This document shows, piece by piece, positions 1,081 through 11,495 of a stretch of DNA of 37,460 nt; position 1 is the first letter of the stretch, and every line of letters starts with the position of its first letter. Where the stretch lies: assembly GCA_937937185.1 (NCBI GenBank), contig CALDCO010000135.1, forward strand, positions 1 to 37,460, in the 5' to 3' direction. The notes beneath the pieces were generated by a model. That model was not told the origin of the DNA, searched no databases, and was given only the letters and a program-made list of their open reading frames with translations. Position numbers and translations under genes: made by a program. Source of the DNA: an uncultured Flavobacteriaceae bacterium. Its GTDB lineage: Bacteria; Bacteroidota; Bacteroidia; Flavobacteriales; Flavobacteriaceae.

Positions 1081-2316
1081 ATGAGAACTCCTATTTTAGT
1101 GGAAAATAAAAAATTCATTTTAGAGCATAAACTTAAAGAAATAGATGCAATTATTAGGTCGGAATATGAAAAAGAAGCTCATTTAGGGGTATTAGCAGGG
1201 CTTTCGGGAATGGCTTTGTTTCAATTTTATTATTCCAAATATTTAAATATTGATGCTAATGCCGATCTTGGAGTAGACATTATTTCTAAGGCCATAGAAA
1301 AAATAAATAATGGTTACAGTTTTTCTACTTATTGCGCAGGAATTGCAGGCTTGGGATGGACACTCGATCATTTAGAACAAGCAGATTTTATAGATATTGG
1401 AAGTGACGATTTACTTTCTGAATTCGATGATTTCATTAAAAAAAGAATGCTTTCAGATTTTAAAAACACTAATTACGACTTTTTACACGGCGGGATTGGT
1501 TATGCGTTTTATTTTTTAAACCGCTTTAGAAATACAAATTCAGTAACGCTTAAAAAAAAGTATACTAAGATATTGTTTGAATTTATAGACTTGCTAGAAG
1601 GGTTATCCGAAACAGAGGCCAATAATAAAATAAAATGGAAATCGGTTTTAAATATAAAAACTGGAGAAGAAGGTTATAATTTAAGTTTATCTCATGGGAT
1701 GTCAAGTATTATAGGCATACTTACAAAACTTTATGAGCACGATGCATTTAAATCAAGAACTGAGCATTTACTCTTAGGCGCAATAAATTATGTGTTAAGT
1801 CTTGAAAACGAAGATAAAAAATCTTGTGTTTTTCCCAATTCAAAAACCTTAGATAATGCTGTTAGTAAGAAAAGTAGATTGGCTTGGTGTTATGGCGATT
1901 TAGGTGTGGGAATTCGATTATGGTTTGCTGCCAAAGTACTAAATGATGAAAAGTTAAAAGAAAAAACAATTTCTATTTTTAAGCATGCCGCGCTTAGAGT
2001 AAAACAAGAAGACACCATGGTAGTAGATGCAGGAATCTGTCATGGCTCCTACGGTAATGCGCAATTATTTAATAGAATATACCAAGAAACAGGAATAATA
2101 ACTTTTAAAGAAGCAGCAAATTTCTGGATAAATGATGGTCTGGAAAAAGGCACATTTGAACAGGGTTTTGCAGGTTATAAACAATGGAAAGGGAGCGATG
2201 AAAAATGGGGTAAAGAGCTTAGTCTTTTAGAGGGTGTTGCTGGCATCGGATTGGTGATAATTGACCATTTATCGAGTTTTAATACGAATTGGGATGAATG
2301 TTTAATGATAAGTTAA
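1081..2316 (+). CDS. lanthionine synthetase C family protein (LanC-like cyclase)
   Basis: 411 aa. LanC-type zinc-site motifs WCYGDLGVGIRLW and GICHGSYGN, plus repeated barrel motifs (GLSGMALFQFYY, HGGIGYAFYFLNRF, SHGMSSIIGIL, LLEGVAGIGLVI). Confidence 0.92.
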   Translation: MRTPILVENKKFILEHKLKEIDAIIRSEYEKEAHLGVLAGLSGMALFQFYYSKYLNIDANADLGVDIISKAIEKINNGYSFSTYCAGIAGLGWTLDHLEQADFIDIGSDDLLSEFDDFIKKRMLSDFKNTNYDFLHGGIGYAFYFLNRFRNTNSVTLKKKYTKILFEFIDLLEGLSETEANNKIKWKSVLNIKTGEEGYNLSLSHGMSSIIGILTKLYEHDAFKSRTEHLLLGAINYVLSLENEDKKSCVFPNSKTLDNAVSKKSRLAWCYGDLGVGIRLWFAAKVLNDEKLKEKTISIFKHAALRVKQEDTMVVDAGICHGSYGNAQLFNRIYQETGIITFKEAANFWINDGLEKGTFEQGFAGYKQWKGSDEKWGKELSLLEGVAGIGLVIIDHLSSFNTNWDECLMIS

Positions 2317-2318
2317 AA

Positions 2319-4571
2319 ATGAATAAAAAAAATCCATATAAAAACTTCAATAATTACATTTTAAGAACACCACTTTTCTCTTTTTCTTCATACAAAATAC
2401 TAACTTCTAAAGCCGTTGTTACTAACGAAGATTTTATTAAAATATGTAACGAACCTATAGTAAAAGAAGCTTTATTTTTAGCATCACCTTCATTTTATAA
2501 GGAAGTTGAACGTTGGCTTAATGGGGAAATTAAAGATAAAGACAAACAAGAAAAATTAAAACTATCGCTTTTAAAATACATCTCCAGAATGTCTTCAAGA
2601 TGCACGCCTTTTGGTTTGTTTGCAGGATGTTCTTTAGGTACATTCGGAGAAGAAACTAAAATAGAATTAGAAGGCGCTACTAAAAATGAAAGACACACGC
2701 GGTTAGATATGAATTATTTAGTCGCATTATCTCAAGATTTAGTTAAAAATGAAAAGATAAAAACGCAGCTTCTATTTTACCCCAATTCTAGTATTTATAA
2801 GGTTGGAAGTCAATTAAGATATGTTGAATATACTTATGAAAATAGTAAAAGGCAGCATCAAATTGTTGCCGTCGATGATTCAGAGTATTTACGTCGCGTT
2901 CTTGAAAAAGCAGAACATGGTACCAAATTAGAAGATTTAGCTTTAATCTTAGTTGATGAAGAAATCAGTATAGAAGATGCTAAAGGCTTCATAAATGAAT
3001 TGGTTTCCAGTCAATTACTTATTAGTGAAATAGAACCATCGGTTTCTGGTCCAGAATTTTTAGAACAAATCACTTCAGTTTTAAAACGATTAGAAGGCGT
3101 CGAAGATGTGTTAAGAACTCTAGAAACTGTAAATAAAAAAATAAAAAATATTGATACAAGTATTGGGAACAATCCTAAAGATTATCTGGATCTAAATGCC
3201 TTTTTAAAAGATTTAGGAACAACATCGGAACTGAAATTTTTATTCCAATCAGACATGGTGTTATGTCATAAAAACAATACTATTAATAACGAAACGATAA
3301 CTCATATAAAGAAAGGACTTTCTCTATTTAATAAAATTACATTACCGCCAAAAACAACTTTACTAGGTCAATTTAAAGATGCGTTTTTTGAACGCTATGA
3401 AGAACGAGAAGTGTCATTATCTAAAGCTTTGGATGTAGAAATAGGAGTAGGGTTTAAACAAAACGAGTCCTCAGGAGATGTAAATCCTTTAGTAGACGAT
3501 CTTCTTATACCAAGTTTAGAAAATAAAAATGCATCTAGAGATATAAGATGGCATTCGGTAAATGCGCTATTCCAAAAACTATTAATAAAAGCGTTTAAAG
3601 AAAATGCTTATAAAATAGTTTTAGACGAGAATGATTTTATAGAACTTGAAACCAATTGGAATGATGTTCCTGATACGTTTTCTAGTATGCTAGAATTGGT
3701 GGTCATTGATGGTGTTGAGAAAGTAAAAATTAATTCGGCAGGAGGATCTAGTGCAGCAAATCTTTTAGGACGTTTTTGTCATGGAGATAAAAAACTTTAC
3801 GATTTTACTAAAGAAATAATAGCTGTTGAAACCAGAATTAATACGAATAAAGTTTTAGCAGAAATTACGCATCTTCCAGAGGCTAGAGTTGGAAATATTT
3901 TAATGCGGCCAAGTTTAAGAGATTTTGAAATACCTTATCTGGCAAAATCCTTAAAACCAAAAGCACAGCAATTAGAAATTAGCGATTTAATGCTTTCAGT
4001 AAAAAATAATAGAACCTTATTTTTAAGATCTAAAAAGAATAATAAAGAAGTAATACCGCACCTTTCAAATGCTCATAACTATTCAGGGAATGGATCATTG
4101 CCTATTTATCATTTCCTTTCAGAAATGCAAACTCAGAATAAGCGTTCGGGTATTGGTTTTAATTTAGGCCCTTTTGCTAATGATTATGAGTTTTTACCTA
4201 GAATTGAGTTCCATAATTTAATAGTACATAACGCAACATGGAATTTAAATAAAAAACATTTGAAACCGTTATTAAATGCTAATAGTAGTAATGAAACACT
4301 TTTAAAAGCAGTTAATGTATTTAGAGAAAAATTAAAAATGCCGCAGTATGTTATGCTTGTTGATGGGGATAACGAATTATTGGTGAATTTAGAGAATGCT
4401 ACTTCAGTTAGAATGTTATTAGGAACGGTAAATAAAAGAACCACTTTTAAGCTTAAAGAATTTTTATTTTCAGAAAATGGCACAGTAAAAAAGGGTGAAG
4501 ATTATTATACCAACCAGGTGATTGTGGCTTTTTATAATGAACAAAAATTAAACGACGCTAAAAGAAATTAA
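2319..4571 (+). CDS. lantibiotic dehydratase N-terminal (glutamylation) domain protein, LanB-N
   Basis: IxRTPLFSFSSYK near the N-terminus and MSSRCTPFGLFAGCSLG, characteristic of Lant_dehydr_N. ATG at 2319 is preferred over the upstream start at 2298 because LanC ends at 2316. Confidence 0.92.
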   Translation: MNKKNPYKNFNNYILRTPLFSFSSYKILTSKAVVTNEDFIKICNEPIVKEALFLASPSFYKEVERWLNGEIKDKDKQEKLKLSLLKYISRMSSRCTPFGLFAGCSLGTFGEETKIELEGATKNERHTRLDMNYLVALSQDLVKNEKIKTQLLFYPNSSIYKVGSQLRYVEYTYENSKRQHQIVAVDDSEYLRRVLEKAEHGTKLEDLALILVDEEISIEDAKGFINELVSSQLLISEIEPSVSGPEFLEQITSVLKRLEGVEDVLRTLETVNKKIKNIDTSIGNNPKDYLDLNAFLKDLGTTSELKFLFQSDMVLCHKNNTINNETITHIKKGLSLFNKITLPPKTTLLGQFKDAFFERYEEREVSLSKALDVEIGVGFKQNESSGDVNPLVDDLLIPSLENKNASRDIRWHSVNALFQKLLIKAFKENAYKIVLDENDFIELETNWNDVPDTFSSMLELVVIDGVEKVKINSAGGSSAANLLGRFCHGDKKLYDFTKEIIAVETRINTNKVLAEITHLPEARVGNILMRPSLRDFEIPYLAKSLKPKAQQLEISDLMLSVKNNRTLFLRSKKNNKEVIPHLSNAHNYSGNGSLPIYHFLSEMQTQNKRSGIGFNLGPFANDYEFLPRIEFHNLIVHNATWNLNKKHLKPLLNANSSNETLLKAVNVFREKLKMPQYVMLVDGDNELLVNLENATSVRMLLGTVNKRTTFKLKEFLFSENGTVKKGEDYYTNQVIVAFYNEQKLNDAKRN

Positions 4572-4572
4572 A

Positions 4573-5472
4573 ATGGCAAAGGACGTACAAAGAAATTTCA
4601 TATTGGGAGATCGTTGGTTATATTATAAAATATATACTGGACCAAAAACATCAGACCTCGTTTTAACTGAAATAATAAAACCTGTAGCTCAGCAACTTAT
4701 AGACTCTAAGATAATAGATAAATGGTTTTTTATTCGTTATGCAGATCCTAAACACCATCTTAGAATTCGCTTTCATCATACAAATCCTGAACAAATTGGC
4801 ACAATAATAAATACTTTATATCCACATTTTAAGACGTTTGTAGATCAAGACTTAATCTGGAAAATACAAATAGAAACTTACCAAAGAGAAATTGCACGTT
4901 ATGGCTCTAATACGATTGATTTAAGTGAAGACCTGTTTTATCACGACAGTAAAATGATGGTTAATTTTATTGATTTAATTGAAGGCGATGAAGGGGAGGA
5001 GCTACGTTGGTTATTTTCTATAAGAGCTATCGATTCGTTTTTAAATAGTTTTAAATACACTAATGAAGAGAAAAAAGAACTTTTAGTACGATTAAGTACT
5101 GGTTTTAGGAGTGAATTTGGAACCTCTAAAGCCTTAGGCAAGCAACTTAATGATAAGTATAGAATTAAAAGCCAAAAACTACAAGAATTTATGACTTTTA
5201 CAGCCCAAGATAATCCAGATCATGCGATTATTTTAGAGGTGTTAAGTGAAAAAGAAAATGCGATCTCTTATATTGTAAATGGCATAATAAAACATAAAAA
5301 AGAAGACACTTTAGAAATGAATATTAATGATTTAATGGGGAGTTATATTCACATGCTAATGAATCGTTTGTTTAAATCGAAAAACAGATTACACGAAATG
5401 GTATGTTACGATTTTTTATGCCGTTATTATAAATCCTTGATTGCAAGGCAGAAAAGTTTTATTAAAGTTTAG
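4573..5472 (+). CDS. thiopeptide-type bacteriocin biosynthesis protein (SpaB_C-like elimination domain), stand-alone
   Basis: RWLYYKIYTGPKTSDLVLTEIIKPVAQQLIDSKIIDKWFFIRYADPKHHLRIRFH is the typical SpaB_C N-terminal signature. Starts 1 nt after LanB-N stop. Confidence 0.9.
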   Translation: MAKDVQRNFILGDRWLYYKIYTGPKTSDLVLTEIIKPVAQQLIDSKIIDKWFFIRYADPKHHLRIRFHHTNPEQIGTIINTLYPHFKTFVDQDLIWKIQIETYQREIARYGSNTIDLSEDLFYHDSKMMVNFIDLIEGDEGEELRWLFSIRAIDSFLNSFKYTNEEKKELLVRLSTGFRSEFGTSKALGKQLNDKYRIKSQKLQEFMTFTAQDNPDHAIILEVLSEKENAISYIVNGIIKHKKEDTLEMNINDLMGSYIHMLMNRLFKSKNRLHEMVCYDFLCRYYKSLIARQKSFIKV

Positions 5473-5593
5473 AGAAGTGTTTTTTTAGTTTTAAAAGTGA
5501 AAATTTATCAAAGGCTTTTAGAGATTTAATTTCTTCTTTTGGTGAAATTTTTAAAACTCTAAAAAATTAATTACAATTTGTAGAATTTAATTT

Positions 5594-5601
5594 TATATTT
5601 G
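5594..5601 (+). promoter_or_regulatory. possible Bacteroidota -7 element (TATATTTG) for the 5622 gene
   Basis: TATATTTG matches TAnnTTTG, 20 nt upstream of the ATG. No well-spaced -33 element. Confidence 0.4.
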
Positions 5602-5621
5602 TATCTCTAAACCTGCTTATT

Positions 5622-7178
5622 ATGAGAAACTTAATTTTCTTTATATTCCTATCATTCAATTGTTACGCTTTAGGTCAATCTATCACAGATTCATTAGAAA
5701 AAGATGTTATTAATCAATTTAAAAAAGATAGTATTAATTACGACTTTATAACTAGTTTAAGTGTAATAGACTCATTAGTAACGAAAGATAAAATTGATGG
5801 CTACAAGAAAAGATTAAATAGTCTAATATCTGGTTTACCCTCTAAAGAATCAAAAGAGAAAAAAGAGATAAAGCGGGTAAAACAGATTTATGATTTAGTC
5901 CATGAGGCACTCTTTGAGAAATATGAAGAATTAGCTTATTTTCCTCAAATTTTTGAAAATAAAACATATAATTGCGTGACTGCTACAGCCATTTATGCCT
6001 ATGTTTTTGATAAATTAGAAATCCCTTATGTGGTAAAAGATGCTCCTGGACATGTTTTTTTAATTGCCTATCCACAAACGCATAAAATTCATTTGGAGAC
6101 AACAGTCCCAGGAGTATATGGATTTAGCAATCCTAAAGATTCAGATGTTAAGGAAGTTGTAGATAACTTGATTAAGTTCAAATTGGTGACACAAAATGAG
6201 GCTGACAGTTTAGGCTATAGCAAAACATACATGAACTACTTTTACGGTGAAGATTTTTTAAATAAATCTGCATTGATAGGGATGCAGTACTATAATAAAG
6301 GCTTAGACGAATATTCTAAAAAAAAATATAAAATAGCTAAAGAAAATATTACTAAATCATTACTATTCTTTCCCTACGCTCCAGCAGAGTTTTTAAATAA
6401 AGGTTTAATTTTTTTAACGTTAGATGAAAGCAAATTAAATACGCTTAAAGATATAGAGCAACTTTATGAAGCTTATTCTTCTCTCGAATATAAAAAAGAT
6501 TTTAATCACAGTGATATTAAAATTCAATTGTATAAAATAACAGATAACGATCTTAATGATTTAGAATTCATTGAAAATACAGTCTCTATTTTAACGAAAT
6601 TTGAAGATGAAGAACTCAACATTAAAAATAAAACTTTCTTATATGAATATTTGTTATCAAAAAATGCCAAAGCAGATGAATTAGAGGAAATTATAAGAAT
6701 TGCAGATATATTATTTCAAATGAACCCTAAAAATAAATTAGCTAAAGAGGCTATAGATTATGCAGTATTTAAAAAATTAAGTCTATTGCCATATTCTTCT
6801 GATGCATTAGATGTCGTGAGTGAATACACATTGAGGTATGATTTTTTAAAGGGAAACAAAAAAATAGACTCCTATAAAATTTATATTTACGGTAGACTTA
6901 TTGATGATAATTTTAAATCTGAAAATATTTCGTTAGGAAGAAAATATTTTGATCAATTTGATTCTTTAATTATTGAAAATGATAACGGTAAAAAATTGTT
7001 GATTAACCCAGAATTAGTTTCAAATATTTACGCTTTTGTTGGAAAGTACTACTACAGACAAAATAAATTTAAAACAGCGTTAAAAATACTTAATAAAGGA
7101 CGGGAGATATATCCAAGGCATAAAGAAACCAATAAATTAATTAAGTGGACCAAAGAAGAAATGAGCGGCAAATTTTAA
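5622..7178 (+). CDS. secreted transglutaminase-like and TPR protein
   Basis: N-terminal signal peptide (MRNLIFFIFLSFNCYALGQS). Transglutaminase-like Cys/His/acid pattern (YNCVTATAIYAYVFDKLEIPYVV, GHVFLIAYP, IHLETTVPG). C-terminal TPR-like helices (YYNKGLDEYSKKKYKIAKENITKSLLFFP, YYRQNKFKTALKILNKGREIYP). Confidence 0.7.
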   Translation: MRNLIFFIFLSFNCYALGQSITDSLEKDVINQFKKDSINYDFITSLSVIDSLVTKDKIDGYKKRLNSLISGLPSKESKEKKEIKRVKQIYDLVHEALFEKYEELAYFPQIFENKTYNCVTATAIYAYVFDKLEIPYVVKDAPGHVFLIAYPQTHKIHLETTVPGVYGFSNPKDSDVKEVVDNLIKFKLVTQNEADSLGYSKTYMNYFYGEDFLNKSALIGMQYYNKGLDEYSKKKYKIAKENITKSLLFFPYAPAEFLNKGLIFLTLDESKLNTLKDIEQLYEAYSSLEYKKDFNHSDIKIQLYKITDNDLNDLEFIENTVSILTKFEDEELNIKNKTFLYEYLLSKNAKADELEEIIRIADILFQMNPKNKLAKEAIDYAVFKKLSLLPYSSDALDVVSEYTLRYDFLKGNKKIDSYKIYIYGRLIDDNFKSENISLGRKYFDQFDSLIIENDNGKKLLINPELVSNIYAFVGKYYYRQNKFKTALKILNKGREIYPRHKETNKLIKWTKEEMSGKF

Positions 7179-7202
7179 TAGTTATAAGTCAGTTGTTTAA
7201 AT

Positions 7203-7268
7203 ATGAAAAACTTCTATCCATTAAAAAATTTTCGAATAAGCAGAATAAATTTTTCTAACCCCGACTAA
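7203..7268 (+). CDS. tiny ORF MKNFYPLKNFRISRINFSNPD; candidate truncated RiPP leader peptide
   Basis: ATG at 7203, TAA at 7266-7268. Composition and LKNFRISRI motif resemble Bacteroidota RiPP leaders. It runs into the first HlyD-tail repeat at ~7255 and has no GG and no core peptide. Confidence 0.25.
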   Translation: MKNFYPLKNFRISRINFSNPD

Positions 7269-7373
7269 ACACTTTCCCCAACTGGTAAAAAATACGTTCC
7301 GAAATGGTTAATTCTTCGGCAATAATTTCGGCAGAGCCTTGCATTTCTTGTTTGAAATCTATTCAATAAATTA

Positions 7374-7404
7374 GACCTGTCAGGTTTCCAAAACCTGACG
7401 GGTC
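7374..7404. repeat. palindrome copy 1 (REP-like)
   Basis: GACCTGTCAGGTTT-CCA-AAACCTGACGGGTC, 14-bp arms with one wobble pair. Confidence 0.9.
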
Positions 7405-7579
7405 TGGAGTACAAGTTTGATAGGTTGCTTATGTAATGAAAAATAATTATTTGAATTAAAATTAACCTCTATTAAACACCTCACGTAATTGATAAAAAAC
7501 ACGTTCTAAAATGGTTATTTCTTCAACAATAATTTTGGGAGAGACTTGCATTTTTGTTTAAAATCTATTCAATAAATTA

Positions 7580-7610
7580 GACCTGTCAGGTTTCTAAAAC
7601 CAAACGGGTC
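7580..7610. repeat. palindrome copy 2 (degenerate)
   Basis: GACCTGTCAGGTTTCTAAAACCAAACGGGTC, same position in the repeat unit but mutated right arm. Confidence 0.85.
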
Positions 7611-7786
7611 TGGAGTACAAGTTTGATTGGTTGCTTATGTAATGAAAAATAATTATTTGAAATAAAATTAACCTCTATTAAACACCTTACGTAATTGGTA
7701 AAAAATACGCTCCAAAATGGTTAATTCTTCGACAATAATCTCGGCAGTGTCCTGCATTTCTTGTTTAAAATCTATTCAATAAATTA

Positions 7787-7817
7787 GACCCGTCAGGTTT
7801 CCAAAACCTGACGGGTC
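7787..7817. repeat. palindrome copy 3 (perfect)
   Basis: GACCCGTCAGGTTT-CCA-AAACCTGACGGGTC, perfect 14-bp arms. Confidence 0.95.
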
Positions 7818-7878
7818 TGAAGTACAAAGTTCGATAGGTTGCTTATGTAATTTTGTTTAAAATCTATTCAATAAATTA

Positions 7879-7909
7879 GATCCGTCAGGTTTCCAAAACC
7901 TGACGGGTC
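7879..7909. repeat. palindrome copy 4
   Basis: GATCCGTCAGGTTT-CCA-AAACCTGACGGGTC, one mismatch. Confidence 0.9.
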
Positions 7910-7966
7910 TGGAGTACAAGTTCGATAGGTTGCTTATAGAATGAAAAATAATTATTTGAATTAAAA

Positions 7967-9289
7967 TTAACCTCTATTAAACACCTCACGCAACTGGTAA
8001 AAAATACGCTCCAAAATGGTTAATTCTTCAACAATAATTTCGGCAGTGCCCTGCATTTCTTGCTTAAAATCAATGGGTTTATTAAATGATGTATTTAAGC
8101 TTTCTAATTTTATAAATATGGTATAACTCGCTTCCCCTTGTTTTGGCACTGCAGAAATACTATTAATTGTACCTTTTAAACTGCCCCATTCCTGGTAAGG
8201 GTAATTGTTTAATTTAATAATAACTTCCTGCCCTTCTTTAACTTTTCCAGAATTTTGAGTGGGCATGGTCACTCTACCTATTATCCCTTTAATATCATTT
8301 GGAACAACGGTAAATAAAACATCACCAATTTTTACATTTTGATAGGTATTCCAAACATCGAATAAAGTGACTTTTCCATCGATAGGGCTCTTAATAACGT
8401 ATTGTTGTTCCCATGCTGTAATTTTATTTTCCAAATTTTGTTTTGCCTCTTCTAGTTTTTGATCGGTTAAAAAGGAACTACTTTGGTCTCCAATATTTGC
8501 TTGTTTTAAACTATTTTGAAGTGATAAAATGGCATTTTCGTCTGTTCTAATATTAGACTGAATAGACTCATAATTTCTTTTGGTTGCAGAATAGGTGTTT
8601 TGTTGTTTTATGTATTCATTTTCAGAAATTATTTTTTTCTTATACATTTCCTCCTGTTTCTTGAAGAGTTTTTTAGCATTTTCTAATTCAGTTTTAAACT
8701 GCTTCAGCTGGTTTTTACTGTTGTAAAGACTGTTTCTTCTTGTTTTAATCTGCAAGTTTAGATTAAAGGCGGTGTTCTTTTCAGAATTGAATTTATTGTA
8801 GTTTAAGTATTCTTGATATTGAAACCGAAACTGATTATAGGTGCTTTGTATGTCTCCAATCTTAATATTAGAGGGGAATTTTATTTTCAAAGAATCAAAA
8901 TCACTAAAATTAGGAGTGAAAGTAGAGAGTTTATTTTTTAAAAAAACAACGTCTTTATAATTTGCAGTGCTTTCAATTACTGCTAAAACCTCTTCTTTAT
9001 TTACACCATCACCAGCTTCAACAAAAATATTGGTTAGTTTTCCAGACGCTTTAGCATCAATATATGCGGGAGGGTTTTTAGAAGTAATGGTAACTTGCCC
9101 CGGAACAATATCATTATAGCTTATAAACGAAACACCAATTAATAATACCAAAACACAAATAAAAACAACAGAAATACCCCACGATATTAACCAATTAGGT
9201 GCTTGGCCAAGTATTTCTTTAACTTGGTCTGAGCGCTCGTCTAGCTCATCAATTTTTCTAGGTTCTATGATCTCTTTTTTATTGGACAT
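7967..9289 (-). CDS. HlyD family secretion/periplasmic adaptor protein
   Basis: Single N-terminal TM (WLISWGISVVFICVLVLLIGVSFISY), lipoyl-like half motifs (ASGKLTNIFVEAGDGVNKEEVLAVIES; VIKSPIDGKVTLFDVWNTYQNVKIGDVLFTVVP), long coiled coil. Confidence 0.92.
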   Translation of the reverse strand: MSNKKEIIEPRKIDELDERSDQVKEILGQAPNWLISWGISVVFICVLVLLIGVSFISYNDIVPGQVTITSKNPPAYIDAKASGKLTNIFVEAGDGVNKEEVLAVIESTANYKDVVFLKNKLSTFTPNFSDFDSLKIKFPSNIKIGDIQSTYNQFRFQYQEYLNYNKFNSEKNTAFNLNLQIKTRRNSLYNSKNQLKQFKTELENAKKLFKKQEEMYKKKIISENEYIKQQNTYSATKRNYESIQSNIRTDENAILSLQNSLKQANIGDQSSSFLTDQKLEEAKQNLENKITAWEQQYVIKSPIDGKVTLFDVWNTYQNVKIGDVLFTVVPNDIKGIIGRVTMPTQNSGKVKEGQEVIIKLNNYPYQEWGSLKGTINSISAVPKQGEASYTIFIKLESLNTSFNKPIDFKQEMQGTAEIIVEELTILERIFYQLREVFNRG

Positions 9290-9290
9290 A

Positions 9291-11495
9291 TTAATTTCCC
9301 AATTCTAATTGATTTTTAACTAAGGTGTAATACGCGCCTTTCTTCTTGGTTAGTACTTCATGAGTCCCTTTTTCTATAATTTCTCCTTTATCTAATACAA
9401 CAATCTGATCGGCGTTCTTAACCGTACTTAAACGGTGTGCTACGACCACCACCGTTTTTCCTTTGTAAAATTCTTTCAGATTTTCCATAATTACTTTTTC
9501 ATTATTAGCATCAAGCGCACTAGTGGCTTCGTCGAAAAAAAGGTATTTCGGGTTTTTATATACTGCTCTAGCAATTAAAATACGTTGTTTTTGTCCGCCA
9601 CTTACATTAATGCCTCCAGCTCCAATTTTTGTATTGTAGCCAGACGGCAATTCTTCAATAAAAGATTCAATATTCGCCACTTTAACAGCATGAGTCAATC
9701 GTTGTTTATCTATCAATCCATCAGAATCCGATTCGGTAATGTTTTTTGCAATGGTATCTGTAAATAAAAAGCCATCTTGCATAACCGATCCACAACATTT
9801 TCTCCAAAATTTGGTGCTAATGGTGTTTAAATTGGTTTGCCCAATATGGAGGTCTCCTTTATTAAAATTATAGAATTTTAATAATAATTTCACTAATGTT
9901 GTTTTGCCACTACCACTAGCACCAACAATGGCGGTGACTTTGCCTTGAGGAAACTCAAAATTTAAATTATTTAAAATAAGCGGTGCTTTTTTTCCGCCAT
10001 AGCGAAATTTACCATTCGTTATTTTTATGGTTTTATCTTTTGGTAATTCAGTTATGGCTTCTTCAAATCTGTTTTCTTCGTCTTTTTTATTGTGTATTTC
10101 AGAAAGCCGTTCAATACTTAACTTGGCATCTTGCCCAGTTTGAATAAAGGTAATGAAGTTATTTATGGGTAAGTTTAATTGCCCAATAATGTATTGAACA
10201 GAGAGCATCATACCAAGTGTTAAATTCCCTTCGATAACTGCTTTTGCAGCAATAAATGTAATTAGAATGTTTTTTAATTCATTTAAAAACCGACCCCCAG
10301 TATTTTGAGTTTGCGATAAGGCTAATCCTTTTATTGATATTTTAAATAACTTTACTTGAATGGCTTCCCATTCCCAACGCCGTCGCCGCTCTGAGCCATT
10401 TAGTTTAATCTCTTGCATTCCAGAGATAAGCTGGAATAAACTACTTTGGTTATCAGAGGATTGATCAAAACGTTTATAATCCAAATCGGCTCTTTTCTTT
10501 AAAAATAATAAGGTCCAACCAATGTATAAAAACGAACCTATAAAGAAAATGCTAAAAATAGTAAGGTTATAATAGGCTAAAACAATTCCAAAAATAATAA
10601 GATTAAAGGCAGAGAACAGGGTGTTTAAAGTCGTGGAGGATAAAAACGTTTGTATTCTATTATGGTCGTAAATGCGTTGCATAATATCTCCAGTATTTTT
10701 GGAATCAAAAAATGAAATAGGCAACCGCATTAATTTCACTAAAAAATCGGAGATTAAACTTATATTTATTCTGCTAGTCATGTGAAGTAATATCCATCCT
10801 CTAATAAGTTCTACAGAAGTTTGAGAGATAAACAACACTAGCTGGGCAATGAGTATTAGGTATACGAAATTGATGTTTTGATAATTAATTCCATAATCGA
10901 CCACTGCTTGGGTTAAAAATGGGAAAATAAGCTGTAATAAGCTGCCAACTAATAACCCAAGAATAAGCTGTAAAATGTATTTTTTATAAGGTTTGAAATA
11001 CCAGAATAAGAATTTGAAACCATACTCTTTTTTATCCTCCTCCTTAGTTTGATCAAATTCTGGTGTGGGTTCTAATAACAATAAATGACCTTTTGAATTT
11101 TCGTCTTTGCCGTGTTTTCCAACCCAGCCCTTAATAAAGTCTTCTTTAGAATATTTCACCAATCCATGCGCAGGATCGGCAACGTAAACCGTATTCTTTT
11201 TTATTTTATGTACCACTACAAAATGGCGCTGCCGCCAATGTGCAATACAGGGCAATGGGACTTCTTCAACTATCGTTTTATAATCTACGGCTACTGCTAA
11301 GGTGTGAAGCCCTATAGCTTCTGAGGCTTCTGCAATTCCCTCTAAAGAGACTCCTTCTCTTGTAATGTTTGCTTTTCTTCTCAGGAAATCTATAGAATAC
11401 GATTTTCCATAGTGTTTTGCAATCATTCTTAAACAAGTAGGACCACAATCCATTTGGTCTAATTGTTTATAAAAAGGGAAATGGGTTTTTGTCAT
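9291..11495 (-). CDS. peptidase-containing ABC transporter (C39 peptidase + TM domain + ATPase)
   Basis: C39 motif QLDQMDCGPTCLRMIAKHYGKSY, HWRQRHFVVVHKI, DPAHG; Walker A GASGSGKTT; signature VSGGQKQRILIARA; Walker B YLFFDEATSALD. Confidence 0.95.
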   Translation of the reverse strand: MTKTHFPFYKQLDQMDCGPTCLRMIAKHYGKSYSIDFLRRKANITREGVSLEGIAEASEAIGLHTLAVAVDYKTIVEEVPLPCIAHWRQRHFVVVHKIKKNTVYVADPAHGLVKYSKEDFIKGWVGKHGKDENSKGHLLLLEPTPEFDQTKEEDKKEYGFKFLFWYFKPYKKYILQLILGLLVGSLLQLIFPFLTQAVVDYGINYQNINFVYLILIAQLVLFISQTSVELIRGWILLHMTSRINISLISDFLVKLMRLPISFFDSKNTGDIMQRIYDHNRIQTFLSSTTLNTLFSAFNLIIFGIVLAYYNLTIFSIFFIGSFLYIGWTLLFLKKRADLDYKRFDQSSDNQSSLFQLISGMQEIKLNGSERRRRWEWEAIQVKLFKISIKGLALSQTQNTGGRFLNELKNILITFIAAKAVIEGNLTLGMMLSVQYIIGQLNLPINNFITFIQTGQDAKLSIERLSEIHNKKDEENRFEEAITELPKDKTIKITNGKFRYGGKKAPLILNNLNFEFPQGKVTAIVGASGSGKTTLVKLLLKFYNFNKGDLHIGQTNLNTISTKFWRKCCGSVMQDGFLFTDTIAKNITESDSDGLIDKQRLTHAVKVANIESFIEELPSGYNTKIGAGGINVSGGQKQRILIARAVYKNPKYLFFDEATSALDANNEKVIMENLKEFYKGKTVVVVAHRLSTVKNADQIVVLDKGEIIEKGTHEVLTKKKGAYYTLVKNQLELGN

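Follow-up and report, generated by a model that had tools for sequence, protein, structure and literature searches.

The window, a 37,460-base contig (C135) of a Flavobacteriaceae genome of 3.54 Mb in 362 contigs, contained an array of copies of the hlyD gene end, and these dead tails are very probably decaying leftovers of tandem duplication of an ordinary kind, not a reservoir of spare parts. The explanation in which we have high confidence is a local tandem duplication at the palindromic 3′ end of hlyD, after which the extra copies decayed neutrally and the units exchanged some sequence.

The hlyD gene (7967–9289, minus strand, 440-aa ORF, Pfam HlyD_3 E = 5e-15) was intact and encoded the membrane-fusion component of an ABC exporter that contains a peptidase; its product was 84% identical in amino acids to the orthologue of a genome of the same genus (G001). 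The HlyD partner, a peptidase-C39 ABC exporter, was encoded at 9291–11495 on the minus strand, and LanC-like, LanB N-terminal and LanB C-terminal proteins were encoded on the plus strand of the window. Together, the genes at 1081–11495 (LanC, split LanB, C39 exporter and HlyD) make up a cluster for biosynthesis and export of the lanthipeptide type. No obvious precursor peptide gene was seen beside hlyD in this cluster. In the congener (L040, 5424–5658), hlyD was followed by a small gene whose leader was of the GG type and contained an in-frame TAG.

On the 3′ side of hlyD, the unit containing the live tail was followed by four further units of ~207 bp, making five in total, arranged head to tail with a period of 206–207 (TRF score of the array, 941). 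On the minus strand, a unit began with an hlyD tail; an AT-rich spacer (~56 nt) came next, then the 33-nt palindrome and finally a short link, TCTAATTTATTGA. After the link, the next unit opened with ATAGATTTTAAACAA, which corresponds by homology to the IDFKQ codons of hlyD. All units lay on the minus strand. Unit U0 (7868–8074) contained the live tail T0 (start 8074, end of stop codon 7967), spacer, palindrome (7878–7910) and link. U1 (7776–7867) was reduced to 92 bp by deletion of the tail and the early spacer; its first 15 nt remained, as did the later half of the spacer and the palindrome (7786–7818). U2 (7569–7775) was full, with a dead tail (T2) and a palindrome (7579–7611) whose stem was weakened by changes. 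U3 (7363–7568) was full except for a 1-bp deletion, which caused a frameshift in its dead tail T3, and had its palindrome at 7373–7405. U4 (7255–7362) comprised the last and most diverged dead tail (T4), with TAG as the stop codon in place of TAA, and had neither spacer nor palindrome. This tail ran into AAAAATTTATTCTGC, and since that sequence has AATTTATT in common with the link, loss of the U4 spacer and palindrome by deletion is suggested.

Three downstream tails had been predicted on the minus strand at 7668–7772 (T2), 7462–7550 (or 7551) and 7255–7344, and all of them were recovered, with a similarity far beyond chance. The stop at the same codon in every copy was also confirmed. A search with the whole unit detected one locus in the source genome, where only the palindrome recurred elsewhere. 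No similar DNA was found among plasmid records, and Rfam gave chance matches only, all below the gathering scores. No other part of hlyD was repeated and the unit occurred once in the genome, so that the idea of remnants of full paralogous hlyD genes, raised in the original prediction, was discarded.

The palindrome, AGACCCGTCAGGTTT-TGG-AAACCTGACGGATCT on the minus strand, forms a putative terminator-like hairpin, of which the copy at 7878–7910 was the first of four. The predicted fold was stable in three of the four array copies (z −3.2 to −5.1, versus −1.5 in the remaining copy), and two copies had a terminator-like score. The pattern GACCYGTCAGGTTTNNNAAACCTGACRGGTC matched ~25 places in the source genome with up to 3 mismatches, while the reversed control pattern matched none. 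Its flanks were CCA...TAA or ATA...TAT. Within the family the palindrome was patchy, being present in 16 of 301 genomes. Inspection of 51 palindrome sites in other genomes of the family revealed no tandem duplication of the flanks at 50 of them, indicating that the palindrome alone is not sufficient; the lone exception (L120) was a tandem repeat at the palindrome with no gene end inside.

In G001, a single hlyD tail was present, with neither such a palindrome nor an array behind it. Head-to-tail copies at one locus and a single copy in a close relative are as expected when the 3′ end of a gene has been duplicated in tandem, and the ordinary tandem duplication put forward in the original prediction was supported. 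Over the 108-nt tail, T0 differed from T2, T3 and T4 at 8, 14 and 17 positions, and the dead tails differed from each other at 13–21. All tails differed from G001 at 22–28 positions and formed a clade against it; most of these differences were common to all copies, indicating that duplication occurred after the species split. The spacer and palindrome were only 5–10% different between full units.

The divergence had been described as protein-preserving, with 5 of 7 differences in the copy at 7668 being synonymous. The T0/T2 differences were indeed mostly synonymous, although over the full 36 codons the count was 6 of 8, and this bias is partly due to selection acting on the live gene alone. 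With G001 as the single outgroup and a very short sequence, which makes the polarisation uncertain, T0 had two synonymous and no non-synonymous private changes, T3 had four non-synonymous and two synonymous changes plus the 1-bp deletion, and T4 had four non-synonymous and six synonymous changes (T3 and T4 together, eight of each plus the frameshift). The only private change in T2 was synonymous; the G>D and E>K changes of this tail fell at sites that were variable in other copies too. Much of the functional-looking picture therefore arose because one live gene was compared with dead copies, but a mild synonymous excess remained: a hand count over the pooled dead branches (window and C362 copies, see below) gave 16 synonymous changes out of 33, against a neutral expectation of 25–30% (p ~0.003–0.02). 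This is a weak and unexplained signal, and exchange between units would blur the count.

Such exchange was indicated by the groupings of the four tails. All three two-by-two groupings were supported, and four of seven sites were incompatible with the best tree where 0.7–0.9 were expected (P ~0.002–0.005, or 0.02–0.04 if two adjacent sites represent one event); sequence exchange among the units is therefore likely. The original prediction had gone further and proposed recombinational exchange with the live gene, the downstream tails serving as a cassette reservoir to vary or repair the HlyD C-terminus. The common stop codon, the synonymous excess in T0/T2 and the incompatible groupings all count in favour of this proposal, but the data gave no sign of exchange feeding the live hlyD. 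Residues 406–416 at the tail start (IDFKQEMQGTA) were invariant in a between-species comparison of nine HlyD proteins, eight of them 36–84% identical to this HlyD, so it is not credible that variants would be stored for the part of HlyD that varies least. The dead copies damaged this very motif at G414 (to D in T2 and V in T3), T415 (to S in T3 and T4) and A416 (to P in T3), and one of them was frameshifted. The single-copy relative manages without the array, and similar duplications at two other gene ends (below) are at places where such use is implausible. A reservoir is thus very unlikely.

Duplication of gene ends at a palindrome recurred elsewhere in the source genome, where two single-copy loci, C362 and C112, are independent cases of the same kind. 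On C362, the palindrome was located between two convergent genes, named Lrp type and PaaY type by sequence resemblance. A 241-bp unit, comprising the Lrp-type gene end, the palindrome and the reversed PaaY-type gene end, was present twice, so that each gene had one live and one dead end; only ~2 bases were shared at the point of restart. G001 had single gene ends and one hairpin at the orthologous site. The orthologous 3′-end hairpins (L122, 1459–1489, versus L020, 201–231) differed by a compensatory change, C-G on one side and G-C on the other, affecting both arms, as would be expected if the hairpin is important. The duplicated unit on C112 was 265 bp long, included ~7 codons of the convergent gene and was doubled between an AhpD-like gene and that gene; the stem was flanked by runs of A and T. 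G001 had single gene ends here too. Its one hairpin of this sequence type close to the AhpD-like gene is at most a candidate orthologue, given a poor alignment of the intergenic stretch.

Among known systems, REP elements tagged with GTAG/CGTC are tandemly reiterated together with flanking DNA (Di Nocera et al. 2013, PMC3733652), and Pseudomonas fluorescens SBW25 has ordered REPIN clusters in which a palindromic element is repeated with its flanks (Bertels and Rainey 2011, PMC3116915). The hlyD array behaves like these REP/REPIN tandem clusters, and its palindrome resembles REP elements in being short, extragenic and present many times over. The copies lacked the unpaired GTAG or CGTC foot at one end (CGTC was solely within the stem of some copies), which places them outside the GTAG/CGTC REP families. 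Seven Y1_Tnp matches were present in the source genome, and the five of these loci that were read contained neither palindrome nor half-site. The segment flanking the hlyD palindrome, in contrast to GTAG/CGTC REP clusters, reaches 35 codons into a gene. The SBW25 clusters also differ in that their copies are described as nearly identical and belong to RAYT-linked REPINs, whereas the hlyD units were 5–20% diverged with no RAYT link found in the five Y1 loci. Bidirectional intrinsic terminators between convergent genes likewise place a hairpin at gene 3′ ends, as does the putative terminator here, but the hlyD hairpin was followed by a poor T run (AATTTATT). A literature search for hairpin-associated duplications or duplicated gene ends turned up no direct precedent apart from the REP/REPIN clusters.

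Replication forks can stall at a hairpin, and the nascent strand can then re-anneal at a short upstream match. In the mechanism that we propose, the palindrome would be the likely trigger: its hairpin would stall the replication fork, and the nascent strand would re-anneal slightly upstream at a short match, so that the stretch between would be copied twice. After the split from G001, the last 36 hlyD codons (stop included) through the 3′-end hairpin would have been duplicated repeatedly in tandem, and unequal exchange would have enlarged the array. Selection would have been kept only on the tail still attached to the rest of hlyD. The remaining copies, no longer coding, would decay, suffer deletions and now and then recombine among themselves. 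The array, its absence from G001, the decay and the recurrence at other palindromes of the source genome were observed; the stalling step and this order of events are conjectural.

Part of the divergence might predate the death of the tails if stretches of tail and palindrome had been imported as diverged alleles from related strains and joined by illegitimate recombination. This would account for the mildly raised share of synonymous changes on the dead branches, those of T4 and the dead PaaY tail in particular, and the divergence between tails (7–20%) is near that between congeners (20–26%). It is nevertheless unlikely, as several separate imports would be required, no source allele was found, and the small difference in spacer and palindrome argues against it. 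A false assembly of mixed strains has to be considered for a fragmented assembly with 362 contigs and 3% contamination, in which several palindrome arrays sit at contig ends. The hlyD array, however, was interior to a 37-kb contig, its units were mutually different with private deletions, and the ~2 bases shared at the C362 restart are too short for a false join in an assembly graph, all of which make an artefact highly improbable. That the units are a small mobile element of REP/REPIN type carrying a piece of hlyD is extremely improbable. The ~25 occurrences of the palindrome and the presence of Y1 transposase genes in the genome would suit such an element, but the single locus of the whole unit ruled it out as a dispersed element, and neither the five Y1 loci examined nor the palindrome ends (no GTAG or CGTC foot) connected the palindrome with such an element.

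Local duplication followed by decay also carries a caution, that in-frame copies of a gene end which conserve the stop and are rich in synonymous changes need not be functional. With three single-copy loci in one genome, palindrome-linked gene-end duplication can be put to the test as a mutational process, and its general interest is modest. A stronger version, in which the palindromic 3′-end hairpins of this lineage are hot spots that duplicate the preceding gene ends, and the dead tails go on recombining with the live gene and are thereby partly kept coding-shaped, seems rather improbable; if true, it would provide a general, selection-free source of gene-tail arrays.

Tandem duplications were surveyed in ~0.6 Mb of the source genome. 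Among the contigs sampled from this genome and from G001, other families of hairpins or repeats were also seen in tandem duplications between genes. In the source genome, C9, C43, C89, C100, C129, C133, C228, C230 and C329 contained dispersed repeats with the palindrome, as arrays of 150–430-bp units often located at contig ends, and several of these repeats had a transposase-like reading frame. The arrays on C9, C100, C228, C230 and similar ones were rejected as gene-tail cases, as a dispersed repeat was common to most of them; we take its reading frame to resemble the start of an IS4/IS1634-type transposase. Small stand-alone GIY-YIG proteins were encoded near or inside intergenic repeat arrays at L020 (1922–2254, Pfam E 3e-16) and L193 (8757–9038, 3e-15); the L193 gene had the same hairpin repeats on both sides, suggesting a link between nuclease and repeat.
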